Notes: generated by a model from the letters alone, not told the origin. Shown: positions 5,567 through 14,620, counted from the stretch's first letter. The stretch is DNA of 33,743 nt from Pseudomonadota bacterium (GCA_018897105.1 JAHILF010000123.1:1-33743), one strand, 5' to 3'. A program made the numbers and translations.

Positions 5567-6967
5567 CTATAAGCCGTGATTTTTCATCTTTTGCCGCAAA
5601 GTGGAGCGATGGATACCGAGCATCTGGGCGGCATGCACCTGATTGCCGTTGCAAACCCGCAATGCCTCGTCAATGATCGTCTTTTCAACGATACCGACCA
5701 TATACTCCATGAGCAGGGGGGGATTGGCATCCGCCTTGAGCAATGAAGCGAAAAGCTGCCTGCTGGCATCGACAAGGGATGATGCAGAGATTTGCCCGGA
5801 GGGTTGTGTCTGGGAAGAAAACTCAAAATATTCGTCAATGAGAATATCATCGCGGGAGAGGACCATAGCCCGCTTGATCTGGTTTTCCAGCTCCCGCACA
5901 TTGCCCGGCCAGGAATACCCCTGAAAGGCCTGCATGACGGAAGCGGCCACGCCGCATACCTTGCGGCTCTGTTCCCGGTTGAACCTGCTGATGAAATGAT
6001 CCACCAGCAGCGGAATATCCTCCCGCCTTTCCCGCAGGGCGGGGATATTGATGTGGACCAGATAGAGCCGGTAAAAGAGATCCTTGCGAAAACGACCGGC
6101 CAGCATCTCGGCATGAAGCTCCTTGTTGGTGGCGGCAATAATCCGGGCCTGGACCGGCACCGGGCTGTTGCCCCCCACCCTTTCAAAGCTTTTCTCCTGC
6201 AACACCCGCAGCAGTTTTACCTGTAGAGATGGCTGCAGTTCGCCTATTTCGTCCAGGAATATGCTGCCGTGGCCGGCCGCCTCGAATTTGCCCATCTTTC
6301 TAGCGCCGGCCCCGGTAAAAGCCCCCTGCTCGTAGCCGAACATCTCCGACTCCAGCAGATTCTCCGGCACCGCCCCGCAATTGACCGCCACAAAAGGCTC
6401 CAACCGGCGGGGGCTATTGTCATGGATGGCCCGGGCAACCAGTTCCTTGCCGACCCCGCTCTCGCCGGTGACCAGCACCGTGACATCCTGGGTGGTGAGC
6501 AGGCCGATCATCTTGTAAATTTCCTGCATGGACGCGCTCCGCCCCACCATCTGATCCAGGGAGACCGCCGGCAGCGACTGGCCTTGGCCAAGCGAGGCGA
6601 TCGTATTCCTGCCGGTCAGGATCCGGTGGATAATATCCCTGACCTTGGCCAGATCAAAAGGTTTGGTCAGATATTCATAGGCACCGAGCTGCATGGCCCG
6701 GATGGTTACATCCATGGTGCCAAAGGCTGTCATGAAAATAACGGCAGCTGTTGGGAGCAGATTCCTGATTTCCGCAAGAAGCTCAAGGCCATCACGGGTC
6801 GAAAGTCGGTAATCCAGGAAGATAATTTCCGGTTTGTGCACCCTGACCTGTTCCAGAGCTGATTCACCGTCTTCCGCCAGCAGGGCGGAGTGCCCCTCGT
6901 CCTTGAGAAACTCGGCAAAGGCCAAGCGGATCATCTGTTCATCATCAACCACCAGAATTTTGCTCAT
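5567..6967 (-). CDS. Sigma-54-dependent response regulator (NtrC family)
   Basis: 466 residues, the usual NtrC-family length. The receiver domain (about 1-118) has acidic residues D8/D9, phospho-acceptor D52 and conserved K102. The AAA+ domain (about 140-370) has Walker A GESGVGKE (168-175), the sigma-54 contact loop GAFTGA (215-220) and Walker B IFLDEIGE. The C-terminus has a Fis-type helix-turn-helix (about 440-466; 'NQVHAAQMLGIHRSTLRQKMK'). Phosphorylated dimers should oligomerise at enhancers and drive RpoN open-complex formation. It overlaps the upstream histidine kinase gene by 4 nt (ATGA), so the two are almost certainly partners. The nearest sigma-54 promoter is that of the PEP-CTERM gene just downstream, an attractive target though not proven. 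Confidence 0.95.
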   Translation of the reverse strand: MSKILVVDDEQMIRLAFAEFLKDEGHSALLAEDGESALEQVRVHKPEIIFLDYRLSTRDGLELLAEIRNLLPTAAVIFMTAFGTMDVTIRAMQLGAYEYLTKPFDLAKVRDIIHRILTGRNTIASLGQGQSLPAVSLDQMVGRSASMQEIYKMIGLLTTQDVTVLVTGESGVGKELVARAIHDNSPRRLEPFVAVNCGAVPENLLESEMFGYEQGAFTGAGARKMGKFEAAGHGSIFLDEIGELQPSLQVKLLRVLQEKSFERVGGNSPVPVQARIIAATNKELHAEMLAGRFRKDLFYRLYLVHINIPALRERREDIPLLVDHFISRFNREQSRKVCGVAASVMQAFQGYSWPGNVRELENQIKRAMVLSRDDILIDEYFEFSSQTQPSGQISASSLVDASRQLFASLLKADANPPLLMEYMVGIVEKTIIDEALRVCNGNQVHAAQMLGIHRSTLRQKMKNHGL

Positions 6968-8364
6968 GACTCCCCTTCTCCAACCGGCAGATGAATGGTG
7001 GCTGTGGTCCCGCCTTCGGAGCGGTTGGCAAGTTCAAGCGCGCCGCCATGCTTTTCAACAATTTTACGGCTGGTGGAAAGCCCCAGCCCCAGGCCTTCGG
7101 GCTTGGTCGAGTAAAAAGACTTGAAGCAGATATCAACATTGCCGTCTTTTATGCCCATGCCTGTGTCGGCAAAGGTAATTTCAACGCCACCGGGTACAGG
7201 AGACGAGGCAATCTCAATCCTTCCGCCTTTGGGCATGGCCTCTCTGCTGTTTATAAGCAGATTCCAGAAAACCTGCTTCATCTTTTCCGGGTCATAGTAA
7301 AGTTCCGGCAGCGCGTCAGAGAGACGGCTCTCCAGAAGAATATTACCAGCCTGCAGTGATGGCGCGGCAAGGGCCAGCAACTCGGTAAGCTGATCGTTAA
7401 TATTGCCCCGTCTCCTGCATAGCTCGCCGGGCCGGGCGCGCTCAACAATCTGCTCGATAATGCGCTCCAGTCGCTCGATTTCCTGAACAAGGGAGGCAGC
7501 CATCTTCTGATTATCCTGCTGGCCATGCAGACGACCGTGCAGAACCTGGACAAACATCTTGATGCTGGTCAGCGGGTTTCTGATTTCATGGGCCAGGCCG
7601 GCAGCCATCCGGCCAGCGGTTGCCATCTTTTCAGACTCGACCAGCCTCTTTTCATAACTCTGCAGCTGATCCATCATACGGTTGAAAGACTGCGCCAGCA
7701 TACCGATCTCATCTTTGCTGCGCACCACAGCCCTCTGGCTGAAATCGTTTCCAGCAATCTTACTTGTCACCCCAACCAGTTCCTCAACCGGCAAGGTGAT
7801 CGTTCTGACAATCAAATACCCCAACAGGGTCATCCCCAGAATGCCCACCAGTGCCAGCCAGCCCGTGGTGACAAAAATCCGTGTCTGCAGCTGATCCGAT
7901 TCCCCGGCAGGCTTCCAGAGACTCAGAAAGCCCTGTCCCCGCCCTGGAATGGTTAAAGATTGGGTGATGGTATTATAGTGCACGCCCTGAAACTCTATGA
8001 TGGGCTCACCGGCATTTTCAGCCCTGAAACCTTTGCCGACAATCTCCCTGGCCACAACGTCCCCTTCACATCCGGCAATGGTGCAATTTAAAATTCTGCC
8101 CTGGTCATCAAAGAGGATAATCTCGGCATTGATCACATCCTTCATCTGCAGGAGAATAAGAGGATTCAAAACATAACTGGACTGGGATATGACCCTGGCA
8201 ACTCTGACCATCTGCTGCCTCAGGTCATCCTGCAGATAACGGCCGATGAGATAGGAGGAGAGCAGCCAGAATGTGACTGTGGTAATTGAAAATAACAGGG
8301 CAAACGGCAGGATGATACGAATAAGAATCCGTTTTGCCCCATAGCCGAATTCATGATGGCTCAC
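6964..8364 (-). CDS. Membrane sensor histidine kinase, partner of the adjacent NtrC-type regulator
   Basis: 466 residues. Two membrane helices (about 15-38 and 163-186) flank a periplasmic sensor of about 120 residues that contains two cysteines (CTIAGC, C94 and C99). A HAMP linker (about 187-240) leads to a HisKA dimerisation helix with AGLAHEIRNPL (phospho-acceptor H259). The HATPase domain has N-box N372, DTGMGI (D400) and GLGLGLS. The start is GTG at 8364 with GGAG about 8 nt upstream. It autophosphorylates and passes phosphate to the regulator encoded immediately downstream. A TTGACA-N17-TAGTTT promoter lies about 55 nt before the start. The signal is unknown; the two periplasmic cysteines could hint at redox or metal sensing, but this is speculation. 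Confidence 0.93.
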   Translation of the reverse strand: MSHHEFGYGAKRILIRIILPFALLFSITTVTFWLLSSYLIGRYLQDDLRQQMVRVARVISQSSYVLNPLILLQMKDVINAEIILFDDQGRILNCTIAGCEGDVVAREIVGKGFRAENAGEPIIEFQGVHYNTITQSLTIPGRGQGFLSLWKPAGESDQLQTRIFVTTGWLALVGILGMTLLGYLIVRTITLPVEELVGVTSKIAGNDFSQRAVVRSKDEIGMLAQSFNRMMDQLQSYEKRLVESEKMATAGRMAAGLAHEIRNPLTSIKMFVQVLHGRLHGQQDNQKMAASLVQEIERLERIIEQIVERARPGELCRRRGNINDQLTELLALAAPSLQAGNILLESRLSDALPELYYDPEKMKQVFWNLLINSREAMPKGGRIEIASSPVPGGVEITFADTGMGIKDGNVDICFKSFYSTKPEGLGLGLSTSRKIVEKHGGALELANRSEGGTTATIHLPVGEGES

Positions 8365-8615: not shown

Positions 8616-9917
8616 ATGCGTCTTCTCCTCACCATTTCATTGTTCATGATTTTGCTGCCCCGCCCTGCGATCGCGGCAATGCCGCCGTCCGACTTTAAGC
8701 AGGGCAAGCAGCTCTTCCTTTCCGGCAACTATGCCGAGGCCCGCACCTATTTTGACAAGGCCTTCCGTGAGGACCCGGCCAACCCTGACATCAACTTCTA
8801 TCTCGGTCGCACCGCCTTTGAACTGGGTGACTATGAAACCGCGCTCATGGCCTATGACCGGGTACTGATCATGGACCCAGGCGCCACCCGGGTCAAGCTG
8901 GAAATCGCCCGCTGCCATCTCCGTCTGGGTTTCAAGGAAATGGCCAAACAGTATTTCCGGGAGGTGCTGGCCACCAATCCGCCGGAGCCGGTGTGGAAAA
9001 ATATTGAAAAATATCTGGCGGCCATTGAGGAGGGGGAGAGGCGGCATTTCTTCACCGGTACCCTGACCGCCGGGGTCAACTGGGATGACAATGTCTACCA
9101 GTCGCCGGTTTCCGATATCATTCTGGGCTCCCTCCAGCTTACCGGTCCCACGGCCACACCGACAAGCGACCAGATTTATGACACCACCGCGGTGATCAAC
9201 CATGTGTATATTTTTGAGGATCAGCGCTTCTCCTGGAAGACCACCTTTACCAATTATAATGCCCTGTACGAGAACCAGCAGGATCTTGATGTCTACTATT
9301 TCGGCCTGAACACCGGCCCGGTCTGGAAGACCGACAAATTCATGTGGAGTAACAGCGTAACCGCCAAGCATATTGATGTGGAGCATGACCGCTACCAGGA
9401 ATCCCTCGGCTTTGCCACGGCCCTGACCCTGCCCATCGAGCGCATGCTCTTCAACTTCGGCGGCCGCCTGGAGGAAAAAAACAATTTTACGGACGGCTTC
9501 CGGGATGCCACCAACTACTTGCTTTATTTCAACCCAGTGCTGGTGGTCGGCGCCAACCGGCTTTCCACCAATTTTTACCAGGAAGTGGAAGATGCCGAGG
9601 CCAAGGTCTTCGGTTACGACCGCATCGGCTGGACCCTGCAGTATGACCGGCAGCTGAGCGAAGACATCTCCGCCTTCGCCAGCATCGGCATGCAGAAGAG
9701 CGACTATCAGGGACCGGATCCCTTCTTCCTGGTCACCCGCTCCGATACCATTGAGGATTTGCGGGCAGGCCTGGCAAAAATGCTCTGGCAGTCCGAGGAC
9801 GCCCGCAGGACCCTTTCAGCCCAGCTGGTTTACGCCTATCTGGACTCGGAATCCAATATCGAGATTTACACCTACCGGAAAAATATCATCACGCTGTCAC
9901 TGACCTTGGGATTTTAA
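8616..9917 (+). CDS. TPR plus outer-membrane beta-barrel protein, Slam/type XI secretion-like
   Basis: 433 residues. A signal peptide (1-20, cleavage AIA-A) is followed by about three TPR units (about 25-120; 'GKQLFLSGNYAEARTYFDKA', 'GDYETALMAYDRVL'). From about 145 to the end there are alternating amphipathic strands rich in Tyr, Asn, Asp and Gly, beginning 'GTLTAGVNWDDNVY' and ending in ITLSLTLGF with a terminal Phe, the signature of Bam-inserted barrels. An N-terminal periplasmic TPR domain fused to a C-terminal barrel is the layout of surface lipoprotein assembly modifiers (Slam, type XI secretion). The next gene ends in a TbpB-like barrel motif, the known type of Slam cargo. It is somewhat shorter than typical Slams. 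The alternative is a generic TPR porin. The Slam assignment is inference from layout and neighbour. Confidence 0.75.
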   Translation: MRLLLTISLFMILLPRPAIAAMPPSDFKQGKQLFLSGNYAEARTYFDKAFREDPANPDINFYLGRTAFELGDYETALMAYDRVLIMDPGATRVKLEIARCHLRLGFKEMAKQYFREVLATNPPEPVWKNIEKYLAAIEEGERRHFFTGTLTAGVNWDDNVYQSPVSDIILGSLQLTGPTATPTSDQIYDTTAVINHVYIFEDQRFSWKTTFTNYNALYENQQDLDVYYFGLNTGPVWKTDKFMWSNSVTAKHIDVEHDRYQESLGFATALTLPIERMLFNFGGRLEEKNNFTDGFRDATNYLLYFNPVLVVGANRLSTNFYQEVEDAEAKVFGYDRIGWTLQYDRQLSEDISAFASIGMQKSDYQGPDPFFLVTRSDTIEDLRAGLAKMLWQSEDARRTLSAQLVYAYLDSESNIEIYTYRKNIITLSLTLGF

Positions 9918-9950
9918 AACAGCCCTGCAAGAATACCAGGTACCCATGCC

Positions 9951-12242
9951 ATGAAGAAAAGAAGCTGCCTGCCCACTCCATACATCAGAGCCTATTTTAG
10001 CCTGCTTGTCCTGCTGCTGCTCCTGCCGACCGCGGTCCAGGCCGAAGAATCAGGGGAGGCGGCGGCAACCGTGGTGGCCTGCCGCGGCAAGGTGCAGGCC
10101 ATCAACGCCAGGGGCGAGATGCGCAAACTGGTGGTTAAGGCGCCGATCCATGTCGAAGACACCATCAAGACAGCCAAGGGCGGCCGCATCCAGATCCTCT
10201 TTACGGACAACACCATCTACAGTCTCGGCCAGAACAGCGAAATGAAGATCGCCGAATACCATTGGCAGCCGGAAGAGAATACCGGCACCCTGAAAACAAA
10301 GGTCAAGGAGGGAGTTTTCCGGGTGATGGGGGGCGCTATCACCAAGGCCTCCCCGCAGAACTTCACCACCGAGACCCCGGCCGCCACCATCGGCATCCGC
10401 GGCTCCATGTACGCCGGCACCGTGACCGCCTCCACACTGGCCGTGGTATTCCAGGGCGGCAGGGGCATTGATGTCACCAATTCCTTCGGCACGGTGGCCA
10501 TTTCCATTCCGGGGCACGGCACCAGCGTCACCATGAACAGTGCGCCCGAGCCGCCGCGCAAGCTGTCCGAGCAGGATCTGGCCGCCTTCAGCAATGAGCT
10601 GGCCGCAGCCGGCGAAGCGGACGAAGAGGCCACCGGCGCCGGGGAAGAGGGAAGCAGCGACGAGTCCGCCCCCCAGGATGAGCAGGCCGTTGACGGCAGC
10701 GAAGATGAAGGAACCGCCCAACCGGCGGCAGAACCGGCAGCCCGTGAAACCGCGGTGGAAGAACCGGTTGCCGACGAGCCGATTAACGATCAGACCGACA
10801 GTTTTGCCGATATCACCCCTTTGACCACAGATACGACTGTTGACACGCCGGTCATTGAGCTGCCGCCGCCCAATGAACTGGCTCCGATTATTGATACCTC
10901 GCCCGCCGCAATCACTGTCCCGGCTGACGGGATTTCCAGCTACCTCGGCACCCTTGCCGGCACCGCAAACAACACGGTCGGCACAATCAGCACCATTAAT
11001 GAGGAGTTGTGGATGGAAGTAAACTGGCACAGCGGCAAGGTATTGGGCCGCATTAAGGGCCAGCCCGGCGATCCCCCTGTTTTCTTTATCGGCAAGGTGA
11101 GCGGCAATCAGATCACCGATGTCAAAATCCTGGGCAGCAATCTGGAATCGCCCTCCGGTAGCACCGCCACCGACCCGCAAACGGTCACGGCACTCTACGG
11201 CTCGGCCAGCGGCACCATTGCCGGCACCGCCTCCGACCTCTTCAACTTCACCGGCTCTGGCAGCGCCTTTGCAGTCGAGCCGTTCAACCAGCCGCTGCAT
11301 GACTCCTGGTCCGTGCAGGGCACCGGCACCAAAGAGCCCCAGGACCCGGCCGACGTGACTTCTCCCCGGGGAGTTGCGGCCTGGAAAGGTTTTGTGGCGG
11401 GGGTTTCCGAAAATATGGCGTCCATCGACACAGACAGACGCTTATTCATGAACAGCAGCCCCGGGGACTTTGCCTTTACCATGGACAAGGACAACGGCAC
11501 CTTAACCGGCAGTCTGTCCGCCATTGACATGAACGGCTCCAATACCCGGCTCACCGGCATCAATCTGGGAGGGGCGCTGGCCTCGGCCTTGGTGCTGGAG
11601 GATAATTTTGCCGCGGAACTGGGCTGCGCCTCCGGCAACTGTGTTTCCAGCGGGACGGCAACGCCCGCCGGCCTGAAAAAATACGGCAATTACCTGGTCT
11701 CGGCCGATCCGGCGAAAAACAATATCAGCGACTACGTCACCTGGGGCTACTGGGAGGTTGCCTATCAGGACCCGGCCAGCGGCGCCCAGTACCACACCCA
11801 TGTCCCCGGCTCCCGCTGGATTGCCGGCGAACCCACCTCGGTGGCCGAGGTCAATGAACTGGTCAGCACCAATTTCATCGGCCATTACAGCGGCACCGCC
11901 TTTGCCAGCAGGATCGACCCCGCCGCCGCCCAGCAGGTGACCGATCTCACCGGTACCGTTGCCATCGACGTTGACTTCGGCAACCTCAATGCCGCCAGCG
12001 CCGTGCAGGGAGTCATCAAGCTGGACGGCATCGATCTGTACGTCAACAGCGGTCCGGCCGGCAACGCCTCTGCCAGCGGCTTCAGCAACAATGTCTACGC
12101 CGTGTCCGCTCCCGGCATCATGCCGAACGGTACCTTCAACGGCGCCTTTTACGGCCCCAAGGCAAAATCCATAGGCGGCAACTTTTATGCCCCGTTCAGC
12201 TCGGGCATGAGCTATGTCGGCATTTACGGCGGCACTCGGTAG
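9951..12242 (+). CDS. Secreted FecR-domain protein with C-terminal TbpB-like barrel domain
   Basis: 763 residues. Signal peptide 1-31 (ends VQA). Residues about 40-195 are a FecR-type domain ('GRIQILFTDNTIYSLGQNSEMKIAEY', 'TETPAATIGIRGSMY'). There is no N-terminal anti-sigma region or FecR-type transmembrane helix, so it is exported rather than a classical sigma regulator. Residues about 205-320 form a very acidic, Pro/Ala-rich linker. The rest is Gly/Ser/Thr-rich beta structure, ending with 'GTFNGAFYGPKAKSIGGNF' (about 727-745) and a final aromatic strand. The FYGPxA..GG.F motif is typical of TbpB/HpuA-type barrel domains that route proteins through Slam exporters. It lies 33 nt after the Slam-like gene. 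Likely cargo of that exporter, though its ligand is unknown. Confidence 0.78.
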   Translation: MKKRSCLPTPYIRAYFSLLVLLLLLPTAVQAEESGEAAATVVACRGKVQAINARGEMRKLVVKAPIHVEDTIKTAKGGRIQILFTDNTIYSLGQNSEMKIAEYHWQPEENTGTLKTKVKEGVFRVMGGAITKASPQNFTTETPAATIGIRGSMYAGTVTASTLAVVFQGGRGIDVTNSFGTVAISIPGHGTSVTMNSAPEPPRKLSEQDLAAFSNELAAAGEADEEATGAGEEGSSDESAPQDEQAVDGSEDEGTAQPAAEPAARETAVEEPVADEPINDQTDSFADITPLTTDTTVDTPVIELPPPNELAPIIDTSPAAITVPADGISSYLGTLAGTANNTVGTISTINEELWMEVNWHSGKVLGRIKGQPGDPPVFFIGKVSGNQITDVKILGSNLESPSGSTATDPQTVTALYGSASGTIAGTASDLFNFTGSGSAFAVEPFNQPLHDSWSVQGTGTKEPQDPADVTSPRGVAAWKGFVAGVSENMASIDTDRRLFMNSSPGDFAFTMDKDNGTLTGSLSAIDMNGSNTRLTGINLGGALASALVLEDNFAAELGCASGNCVSSGTATPAGLKKYGNYLVSADPAKNNISDYVTWGYWEVAYQDPASGAQYHTHVPGSRWIAGEPTSVAEVNELVSTNFIGHYSGTAFASRIDPAAAQQVTDLTGTVAIDVDFGNLNAASAVQGVIKLDGIDLYVNSGPAGNASASGFSNNVYAVSAPGIMPNGTFNGAFYGPKAKSIGGNFYAPFSSGMSYVGIYGGTR

Positions 12243-12267
12243 ACCATGATCAATATAATCCAGACAT

Positions 12268-12295
12268 GAAGGGGTACCCCTTGCGGGTACCCTTC
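12268..12295 (+). terminator. Hairpin after the FecR-domain gene
   Basis: GAAGGGGTACCC (12268-12279) pairs with GGGTACCCTTC (12285-12295) as an 11-bp stem with one bulged G and a 5-nt loop. No U-tract follows, so it may attenuate rather than stop readthrough into the cyclase gene, which begins about 100 nt later. Confidence 0.4.
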
Positions 12296-12394
12296 TCCCC
12301 TCGCGAACAAGGGCAACCACAAGGGTTGTGCACTTTTATAAGCCGCAACCCCTGACAACCAAAACCAACAATTCACGGCAACCCGCCACCCCGG

Positions 12395-14620
12395 ATGATA
12401 CGCTCATACCTCAAACCCACACCCTTTAAAATCGGCTGCCTGGTGGTGATCGCCTCCCTCGTCCTCTTCAATTTTTTCGGCAGCCGCAAGCCCCAGCTGC
12501 TCACCTCCTTTGACAACCGGTTGACCGATCTTATGTTCACCATCCGGGGCAAAAAACCCACCAGCGGCCAGGTGGTGATTGTTGACATTGACGATGCGAG
12601 CCTGGCTCGGATCGGACAATGGCCATGGCCCAGAAATATTGTGGCCGACCTGGCAGCGCAGATTCATCATGCCGGAGCCCGGGTTATCGGCTTTGATATT
12701 GTCTTTGCCGAGCCGGACAGGACCTCCCCGAAAAATCATCTGGACGGCATCATCGATCTGCTGGCCACCCCTGTTGCCGAGGACGAACGAAATGCTCTGC
12801 GCGCCAATCCTTCGCTCGATCACGACCTGATCCTGGGGGACACCCTGGCGACCATGCCCAGTGTCCTGGGCTATGTCTTTCTCACCAGCCCGCAACACGG
12901 CCTTGCGGCCAATACCCCCTTTCCATCCTGCACTATCCATCTTGATCCCTCCTCTACCCCGCTGCCCTCGATCAATTTCATTCAGGCCAGCAATGCCATT
13001 GTCAATATCACTGATGTATCCCAGGGGGAAAGCGAAGGTTTTTTCAATGTCTTCCCTGATCCCTCAGGCACCATCCGCAAGGTGCCCCTCTTCATGGCTT
13101 TAAACGACGTGCCCTATCCTTCCCTGGCCCTGGAGACCATGCGCATCGGCCTGGGGAAACAGGAGGTGACCATCCACCTCTCCCAACAGGTGGAGACTGC
13201 CAGAAAAGGCATACTGGGTATTACCGCGGGCGGCGGATTTATCCCGACCGATGACCAGGGCCAGCTCACGGTCAACTACCGGGGCCCGGTGAAAACCTTT
13301 CCCTATCTGCCGGCGGCCGATGTGCTTGCCGGCCTGCACCTTGACAGGCTCAAGGATAAATACGTGCTCATCGGCACCTCGGCGGCCGGACTGCTTGACC
13401 TGCGGGCCACCCCCTTTGCCAGCATCTTCCCCGGGGTGGAAATTCAGGCAACCCTCATGGACAACTTACTGGGCGGCGATCCGCTCACCTATGATCTCTA
13501 CACGGAAATCGGCCTGACCTACGCCCTGGTGGCAGGCGGCGGCCTCCTGCTCAGCGCCCTGCTGGCCTATGCCACCCCCCTGATCGGAGCCCTGGCCGGT
13601 CTGCTGTGTCTGCTGGCCACCGTCGGCGGCTCCTATTTTTTCTTTTTAAACAACAAGATCATCGGCATTACCTATCCGCTGCTGACCATTATCACGGTTT
13701 TCCTGGTAGTGACCCTGAGCAATTACTTTTTTGCCGGCCGGGAAAAACGATTTCTGCGGGATGCCTTCGGTCATTATGTCTCACCTGATGTGGTGAGCGA
13801 AATCATCAAGAATCCGGCCAATCTCTCCCTTTCGGGCCAGGTAAGGAATTTGACGGTTTTTTTCAGCGATATCCGTGATTTTACGACAATTTCCGAAAAA
13901 ATGGCGCCAACCCAGCTGGGTCGCTTCATGAATCGCTATCTCACCGCCATGAGCTCGGTGCTGCTGGAGCATGGCGGCACGGTGGACAAATATATCGGCG
14001 ATGCGATCATGGCCATCTGGGGCGCGCCTCTCTTAGACAACGATCACGCGGCCAGGGCCGTGCGGGCCTCGCTGGCCTCGATCAGACAACTGGCGGAACT
14101 GCAGCAGGAACTCCAGGAAGAACAGCAAGGGGAAATACAAATCGGCATCGGGCTCAACACCGGCGAGATGAATGTGGGGAATTTCGGCAGCACCCAGCGT
14201 TTTGACTACACGGTGATCGGCGACAATGTCAACCTGGCCTCCCGCCTGGAGGGACTGACCAAGATTTACGGCTGCCGCATCCTGATCAGCGAATCAACCA
14301 GGGATGCGGCGGGACCAGATTTTTTCTGCAGTTTTATCGATCGGGTGCGGGTCAAGGGCAAAAAACTGCCGGTCAACATCTTTGAGCCGCTCTGCGAGGG
14401 TGAACCGGCGGGAGAGCTGCAGAGGGAGGTGACAAGTTTTCAGCAGGCGCTAACCGCCTATCAGCAGCGGGATTTTATTGCGGCCAGGCAGATCATGAGC
14501 CAATTGCACGAGCAAAACAATCGCAAGCTCTACCGCCTCTATCTGGAAAGAATCGAGGTTTTCCTCAGCGCCCCGCCGCCGCCGGACTGGGACGGGGTCT
14601 TTGTCTTTACCAGCAAATAG
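12395..14620 (+). CDS. CHASE2-domain class III adenylate cyclase
   Basis: 741 residues. An N-terminal membrane helix (about 11-28) leads into a CHASE2 extracytoplasmic sensor (about 35-365; 'VVIVDIDDASLARIGQWPWPR', 'DKYVLIGTSAAGLLDLRATPF'). Three further membrane helices (about 370-445) follow, then a class III nucleotidyl cyclase domain (about 482-660). Metal ligands are D492 (FFSDIRDF) and D536 (DKYIGDA). K532 and D604 are the adenine-selecting pair, so ATP is the likely substrate. N613 and R617 (DNVNLASRLE) fit the transition-state residues. A short TPR-like tail (about 680-720) ends the protein. It should make cAMP in the cytoplasm in response to a periplasmic cue. FecR-domain secreted proteins and CHASE2 cyclases are often neighbours. 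The ATG has no strong Shine-Dalgarno. Confidence 0.92.
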   Translation: MIRSYLKPTPFKIGCLVVIASLVLFNFFGSRKPQLLTSFDNRLTDLMFTIRGKKPTSGQVVIVDIDDASLARIGQWPWPRNIVADLAAQIHHAGARVIGFDIVFAEPDRTSPKNHLDGIIDLLATPVAEDERNALRANPSLDHDLILGDTLATMPSVLGYVFLTSPQHGLAANTPFPSCTIHLDPSSTPLPSINFIQASNAIVNITDVSQGESEGFFNVFPDPSGTIRKVPLFMALNDVPYPSLALETMRIGLGKQEVTIHLSQQVETARKGILGITAGGGFIPTDDQGQLTVNYRGPVKTFPYLPAADVLAGLHLDRLKDKYVLIGTSAAGLLDLRATPFASIFPGVEIQATLMDNLLGGDPLTYDLYTEIGLTYALVAGGGLLLSALLAYATPLIGALAGLLCLLATVGGSYFFFLNNKIIGITYPLLTIITVFLVVTLSNYFFAGREKRFLRDAFGHYVSPDVVSEIIKNPANLSLSGQVRNLTVFFSDIRDFTTISEKMAPTQLGRFMNRYLTAMSSVLLEHGGTVDKYIGDAIMAIWGAPLLDNDHAARAVRASLASIRQLAELQQELQEEQQGEIQIGIGLNTGEMNVGNFGSTQRFDYTVIGDNVNLASRLEGLTKIYGCRILISESTRDAAGPDFFCSFIDRVRVKGKKLPVNIFEPLCEGEPAGELQREVTSFQQALTAYQQRDFIAARQIMSQLHEQNNRKLYRLYLERIEVFLSAPPPPDWDGVFVFTSK

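Follow-up and report, generated by a model that had tools for sequence, protein, structure and literature searches.

The 33,743 nucleotide stretch analyzed here (Pseudomonadota bacterium, GCA_018897105.1 JAHILF010000123.1:1-33743; hereafter "the window") carries three open reading frames (ORFs) in a row on the plus strand, at 8616-9917 (433 aa), 9951-12242 (763 aa), and 12395-14620 (741 aa), with intergenic gaps of 33 bp between genes 1 and 2 and 152 bp between genes 2 and 3. A first-pass annotation of the sequence had recognized the three adjacent genes and described them as a Slam-like TPR/barrel protein whose barrel ends in Phe, a FecR-domain protein ending in TbpB-type barrel sequence, and a CHASE2 cyclase with its catalytic residues. 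The ORFs are where it placed them, and the three domain layouts (TPR plus SlipAM, FecR plus TbpB_B_D, CHASE2 plus Guanylate_cyc) all score above the Pfam curated cut-offs. We conclude that the trio is a real and conserved new combination of two kinds already known, for which we infer the steps of export and signaling.

Gene 1 (8616-9917, +) is supported as encoding a Slam-family protein, predicted to combine TPRs with an outer membrane barrel, so that the Slam-like assignment holds at the sequence level. The periplasmic TPR domain (residues 26-138; 8691-9029, +) is matched by Pfam TPR models (TPR_16, 61 bits), and an AlphaFold2 (AF2) model from two input sequences renders this region as paired helices with a predicted local distance difference test score (pLDDT) mostly of 60-88. 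The C-terminal barrel (residues 145-433; 9048-9914, +) contains a SlipAM match (PF04575, residues 208-430) of 28.4 bits against a cut-off of 22 and ends in a Phe, F433, that is invariant across 24 homologs; SlipAM is matched at E<=0.01 in 21 of these 24 (best 2.9e-17). The Slam-specific TPR_Slam model reaches 18.5 bits on the window gene, under its cut-off of 35.2. In the gene 1 tree, 26 trio members fall into one clade (support 96/94).

Gene 2 (9951-12242, +), the presumed cargo, begins with a type I (Sec) signal peptide assigned by reading the sequence (about residues 1-31; 9951-10043, +; ...LLLLLPTAVQA before the cleavage site, EESGE after it), directly followed by the FecR domain (about residues 37-204; 10059-10562, +; PF04773, 35.5 bits against a cut-off of 24), which is matched at E<=0.01 in 22 of 22 homologs. 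No lipobox lies at the window cleavage site or at the end of the signal peptide in any of the 22; two matches to the lipobox pattern, VVAC inside the window FecR domain and LTSC ahead of the hydrophobic core in homolog L036, were set aside as chance. Residues 205-320 (10563-10910, +) form an acidic linker, disorder-like in composition and charge (83% PTSGADENQ, net charge -30), that ranges from 48 to about 390 aa across homologs. The remainder, residues 321-763 (10911-12239, +), is a putative surface unit delimited by phmmer, which finds it in 2-3 tandem copies in the long homologs L056 and L050. Consistent with the first-pass annotation, this unit closes with a TbpB-type beta-barrel domain (residues 645-763; 11883-12239, +; TbpB_B_D, PF01298, 34.3 bits against a cut-off of 26), present in 21 of the 22 homologs (best 9.3e-17), and a profile of the 22 homologs compared with solved structures in the PDB matches the C-lobes of TbpB at E=3.7e-10, as well as GNA2132 and hemophilin (1.2e-3), all at the C-terminus. 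The FecR profile in turn matches structure 5ix9 (E=9.9e-8), an entry labeled "Antifreeze protein" that we take to represent the retention region of an adhesin from Marinomonas primoryensis; the NCBIfam model retention_LapA scores 32.7 bits on gene 2, under its cut-off of 50. PMC13090378 describes how the M. primoryensis adhesin is anchored in the membrane by a dedicated domain, and also describes retention modules, which remain periplasmic. As to a regulator of the FecI-FecR type, gene 2 has no anti-sigma part before its FecR domain, and the trio includes neither a sigma gene nor a TonB receptor.

Gene 3 (12395-14620, +) is predicted to encode a CHASE2 class III adenylate cyclase. Its CHASE2 domain (12473-13480, +; PF05226, 198 bits) is placed by hydropathy in the periplasm, between an N-terminal transmembrane segment (residues 6-31) and a transmembrane cluster (372-448), and is followed by the catalytic domain (13838-14365, +; Guanylate_cyc, PF00211, 81 bits). 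The catalytic set of both metal Asp, the base Lys, Asn, and Arg is complete, as had been claimed: D492, K532, D536, N613, and R617 are invariant across 20 homologs, and T606 is T or S; the Lys-Thr pair suggests ATP as the predicted substrate. A PADLOC assignment to Pycsar was ruled out, since only the common cyclase fold matches, the CHASE2 protein is a membrane protein, and the trio has no Pycsar effector. The source genome has two additional genes each for CHASE2 and FecR proteins, and its 12 cyclic-nucleotide-binding proteins make receptors for cyclic AMP (cAMP) plausible. One further pair forms a second FecR-CHASE2 unit (L124:3741-6905, contig C96; also seen at L113), in which consecutive genes encode a small FecR protein, an OmpA-like lipoprotein of 200 aa, and a CHASE2 protein; a third FecR-domain protein of 808 aa (L133:6359-8785) is on contig C13, which has no CHASE2 match.

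The trio is a conserved unit and not a chance arrangement. Many genomes belonging to the same order carry full-length relatives of gene 2, and in about 25 of that order's genomes the gene order and strand of the trio are kept, allowing for contig ends; the genes flanking the window trio are common to close relatives only. Outside the order, the trio is found at L072 (where the cyclase, overlooked by ORF picking, is present at the expected place), L073+L074, L075, and L076, and two alphaproteobacterial plasmids, one from Shinella sp. H4-D48 and one from Paracoccus aminophilus, encode a TPR protein, a FecR protein, and a cyclase, the Paracoccus case resting on annotation and on a match of 43% that spans 40% of the FecR protein from Shinella. 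The Shinella barrel gene resembles window gene 1 over the TPRs and the start of the barrel (E=3e-20) and has no SlipAM match; its later strong profile scores were discounted as circular, the gene having been in the training alignment. A search of genome contigs for relatives returned one close relative only, and the distribution is therefore drawn from L-numbered genome loci and plasmid records; viral contigs yielded no relative. The co-occurrence in other genomes that the first-pass annotation had proposed to look for is thus seen in the order, in the wider phylum, and on two plasmids.

The genes adjoining the window trio are both on the minus strand: to its left is a histidine kinase gene, and to its right one of the ribonuclease G family. 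A possible regulator of the trio is encoded at 5567-8364 (-), where genes for a histidine kinase and an NtrC-family response regulator diverge from it. In Shinella the trio adjoins NHLP-type export genes and a cyclic-nucleotide-binding protein (L070:9056-15886), in Paracoccus a cyclic-nucleotide-binding patatin protein (L139:1240-3066), and in both a DUF3307 gene lies downstream.

Two gene linkages meet in the trio. The first joins the TbpB-type barrel to the Slam-type gene: of 297 genomes sampled in the phylum, 182 have CHASE2 but only 13 have TbpB_B_D, such counts being phylogenetically non-independent, and 13 of 13 TbpB_B_D genes adjoin a Slam-type gene, 12 on the same contig (one pairing is inferred across a contig break, one gene is truncated at a contig end, and one lies in a broken assembly). 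A CHASE2 gene is also adjacent in 9 of the 13. TbpB-Slam pairs occur without FecR as well (L079, by our own profile; L080; L085; L087), an indication that the TbpB barrel goes with the Slam-type gene. At L085:152-3454 the barrel is part of a protein with a VWA domain, and the Slam-type TPR gene that comes next is truncated where the contig ends.

The second linkage joins FecR to CHASE2. A FecR domain lies within three genes of CHASE2 in at least 11 of 36 loci, which were taken by hand from the best-scoring matches rather than at random and scored with our own FecR profile, making 11 a lower bound. The accompanying partner is an OmpA-type lipoprotein at L113 and L124 and a TPR-barrel protein at L108, L110, L123, and L126. 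At L061:3715-11430 and L069:4818-11817 the CHASE2 cyclase adjoins a FecR-domain RTX/cadherin adhesin and apparent type 1 secretion genes, the FecR domain being at the N-terminus of the exported adhesin. Close homologs of the window TPR and FecR domains form a pair of TPR-only and FecR-only proteins, with neither a barrel nor an adjacent CHASE2, at L067:6558-8082 and L068:6487-7985. What looks like a fusion of FecR and CHASE2 genes in L049 is a run of N in the assembly and was not accepted, nor was a similarly odd joined ORF in L081 used as a fusion. In Sinorhizobium meliloti, NsrA, a protein of 1219 aa encoded directly before the CHASE2 cyclase CyaK, combines FecR (57 bits), TPRs, and an extended C-terminal region; we located it by its position upstream of the cyclase on pSymB, in a record without annotation. 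NsrA is an outer membrane receptor experimentally required for CHASE2-cyclase signaling (PMC7529298, PMC13001267), and clusters of FecR, TPR, and CHASE2-cyclase genes have been published for Campylobacterota (PMC9239204), so that the signaling logic has precedent.

We propose, considering the case evenly balanced, that the three genes form a relay linking the cell surface with cAMP in the cytoplasm. The Slam-type protein would pass the C-terminal TbpB-type unit or units of the FecR protein across the outer membrane; the N-terminal FecR domain would fold and remain in the periplasm, like the retention domain of a LapA-type adhesin; the long acidic linker would join this domain to the surface part; the FecR domain would dock on the cyclase's CHASE2 domain or be presented to it; cAMP synthesis would change with ligand binding or pulling at the surface unit, or with its display state; and Crp-type receptors would read the cAMP. 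We infer translocation, retention, FecR-CHASE2 contact, the change in cAMP, and the ligand from the domain content, the conservation of the trio, the catalytic residues, and the two gene linkages. Since CHASE2 is periplasmic, a FecR domain must be periplasmic to be read; a protein exported whole would be unreadable by CHASE2, and the FecR domain is therefore most likely retained.

Several kinds of evidence favor such a relay: i) the trio is kept as a unit where the flanks are not, and recurs beyond the order and on plasmids; ii) TbpB_B_D always lies beside a Slam-type gene, and FecR recurrently near CHASE2; iii) by analogy, NsrA is needed for signaling through a CHASE2 cyclase; iv) the match to 5ix9, together with the sub-cut-off retention_LapA match, would fit FecR retention; v) mean pairwise identity is 54% for FecR, 51% for TPR, 51% for CHASE2, and 55% for the cyclase, against 36% and 34% for the outer barrel and the surface unit, respectively (FecR is more conserved than the surface unit in 104 of the 105 pairs, which are not independent), an indirect indication, as would follow if FecR, TPR, and CHASE2 shared a periplasmic interface and the surface part varied, to which the repetition of that unit in long homologs may be added; and vi) FecR-bearing RTX adhesins are found beside CHASE2 cyclases.

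Other observations fail to support the relay or weigh against it. AF2 models from two input sequences leave the gene 1 barrel unresolved (pLDDT 41 overall, about 25 in the barrel) and give no usable barrel for gene 2 residues 321-763 (pLDDT 32); no retained cargo of a type XI secretion system (T11SS) is described in the literature searched, known cargo being fully translocated; and units of TPR-barrel protein, FecR protein, and CHASE2 cyclase exist without a TbpB domain (L077, L083, L084, L108, L110, L126), some of them with SlipAM-type barrels (L077, L084, L110). Because Slam-type barrels thus adjoin TbpB-less FecR proteins, barrel similarity alone leaves transport unproven, and the SlipAM score does not cleanly separate barrels with TbpB-bearing FecR partners from those with TbpB-less ones. 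At L077:5117-6832 the FecR protein between the SlipAM-type protein and the CHASE2 cyclase ends in some 280 residues of Asp-Thr-rich repeats.

The existence of these TbpB-less units, some with barrels matching SlipAM, makes a receptor without export the main rival, unlikely in our judgment yet to be taken seriously. The TPR-barrel protein would be an NsrA-like outer membrane receptor split over two genes, and the FecR protein, wholly periplasmic, would dock its TbpB-type barrel on the TPR/barrel protein and relay the state of the receptor to CHASE2. NsrA, a single chain that unites FecR, TPR, and outer membrane barrel and is encoded next to a CHASE2 cyclase, would be the model, and the seven verified T11SS exporters all belong to cluster 1, so that other clusters may have changed function (PMC12282271). 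Against a receptor, TbpB-type barrels are the recognized hallmark of Slam cargo and, across this phylum's sampled genomes, always accompany Slam-type genes, also on non-FecR proteins (the VWA protein of L085; L080, L087), and the surface units are fast-evolving and tandemly repeated, unlike a periplasmic adaptor.

If Slam-type export does operate, the FecR protein might instead cross whole, with CHASE2 sensing only the unexported periplasmic pool and reporting secretion status, or with the cyclase merely co-regulated. We regard this as improbable. The type I signal peptide without a lipobox resembles that of soluble T11SS cargo such as hemophilins (PMC12282271), and no other known T11SS cargo crosses only in part. 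However, the length of the linker and the similarity of FecR to a retention domain speak against full secretion, and the FecR-CHASE2 linkage also holds where FecR is on an outer membrane barrel (NsrA) or beside an OmpA-type lipoprotein (L113, L124), which are not export checkpoints. The match to 5ix9 could also be taken to mean that FecR is a retention plug only, holding the surface unit as in LapA adhesins, while the cyclase regulates or times display instead of reading it, and LapA-type retention modules are indeed under inside-to-outside cyclic nucleotide control (PMC13090378). CHASE2, however, is a sensor domain feeding the cyclase, so that signal flow should be outside-in, and the S. meliloti outer membrane protein acts upstream of CHASE2 cyclases; we consider a mere plug very improbable.

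Extending the surface-to-cAMP relay beyond the window, we tentatively suggest, with the balance tilted slightly against us, that FecR domains may generally serve as the periplasmic "retained end" of proteins displayed at the surface, with CHASE2 enzymes as their readers; that Slam-type export may supply one of several interchangeable surface modules, the others being the NsrA barrel, RTX adhesins, and OmpA or LysM proteins; and that display or binding by T11SS cargo may directly set cAMP. We know of no established input for CHASE2 domains, and to our knowledge nearly all studied T11SS cargo serves host-associated bacteria; the trio gives CHASE2 a testable partner and T11SS a possible signaling role. 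FecR, CHASE2, and cyclases are absent from the main texts of two T11SS surveys, and we found no paper on FecR with Slam/T11SS, or on Slam with FecR and cAMP, in a search that did not extend to supplements and subscription journals. The "undescribed link" between surface secretion and second messengers claimed by the first-pass annotation goes too far in its signaling half, where NsrA/CyaK and the Campylobacterota clusters came before; the new element is FecR carried on predicted Slam-type cargo.

Compared with known systems, the trio resembles type XI secretion (Slam/DUF560, PF04575, with TbpB, HpuA, or hemophilin cargo) in placing a TPR protein with a predicted outer membrane barrel beside a Sec-exported protein whose C-terminal domain is of the TbpB type, predicted to be an 8-stranded barrel, but an N-terminal FecR is absent from the cargo architectures in the main texts of the two surveys, and the window trio has an adjacent cyclase gene and neither a lipid anchor nor TonB/iron genes. 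Like NsrA-CyaK, it encodes FecR, TPRs, and an outer membrane barrel beside a CHASE2 class III cyclase; in NsrA, however, FecR and the barrel share a single chain of 1219 aa, whereas the window FecR is on a separate TbpB-barrel protein. The Campylobacterota clusters (PMC9239204) likewise group a FecR outer membrane protein, a TPR protein, and a CHASE2 adenylate cyclase, but include a phosphodiesterase, a gene not identified beside the window trio, and have no reported Slam/TbpB domain. The BiofilmReg operon of Burkholderia (PMC5192318) also sets a periplasmic FecR protein beside a CHASE2 sensor, but its FecR is fused to LysM and its CHASE2 protein is a histidine kinase. Finally, in retained adhesins of the LapA/MpAFP type the N-terminal domain resembles the front half of FecR (5ix9) and the surface part is C-terminal, as in gene 2, but these adhesins use type 1 secretion and release by the LapG protease, whereas the window has a putative Slam-type exporter.

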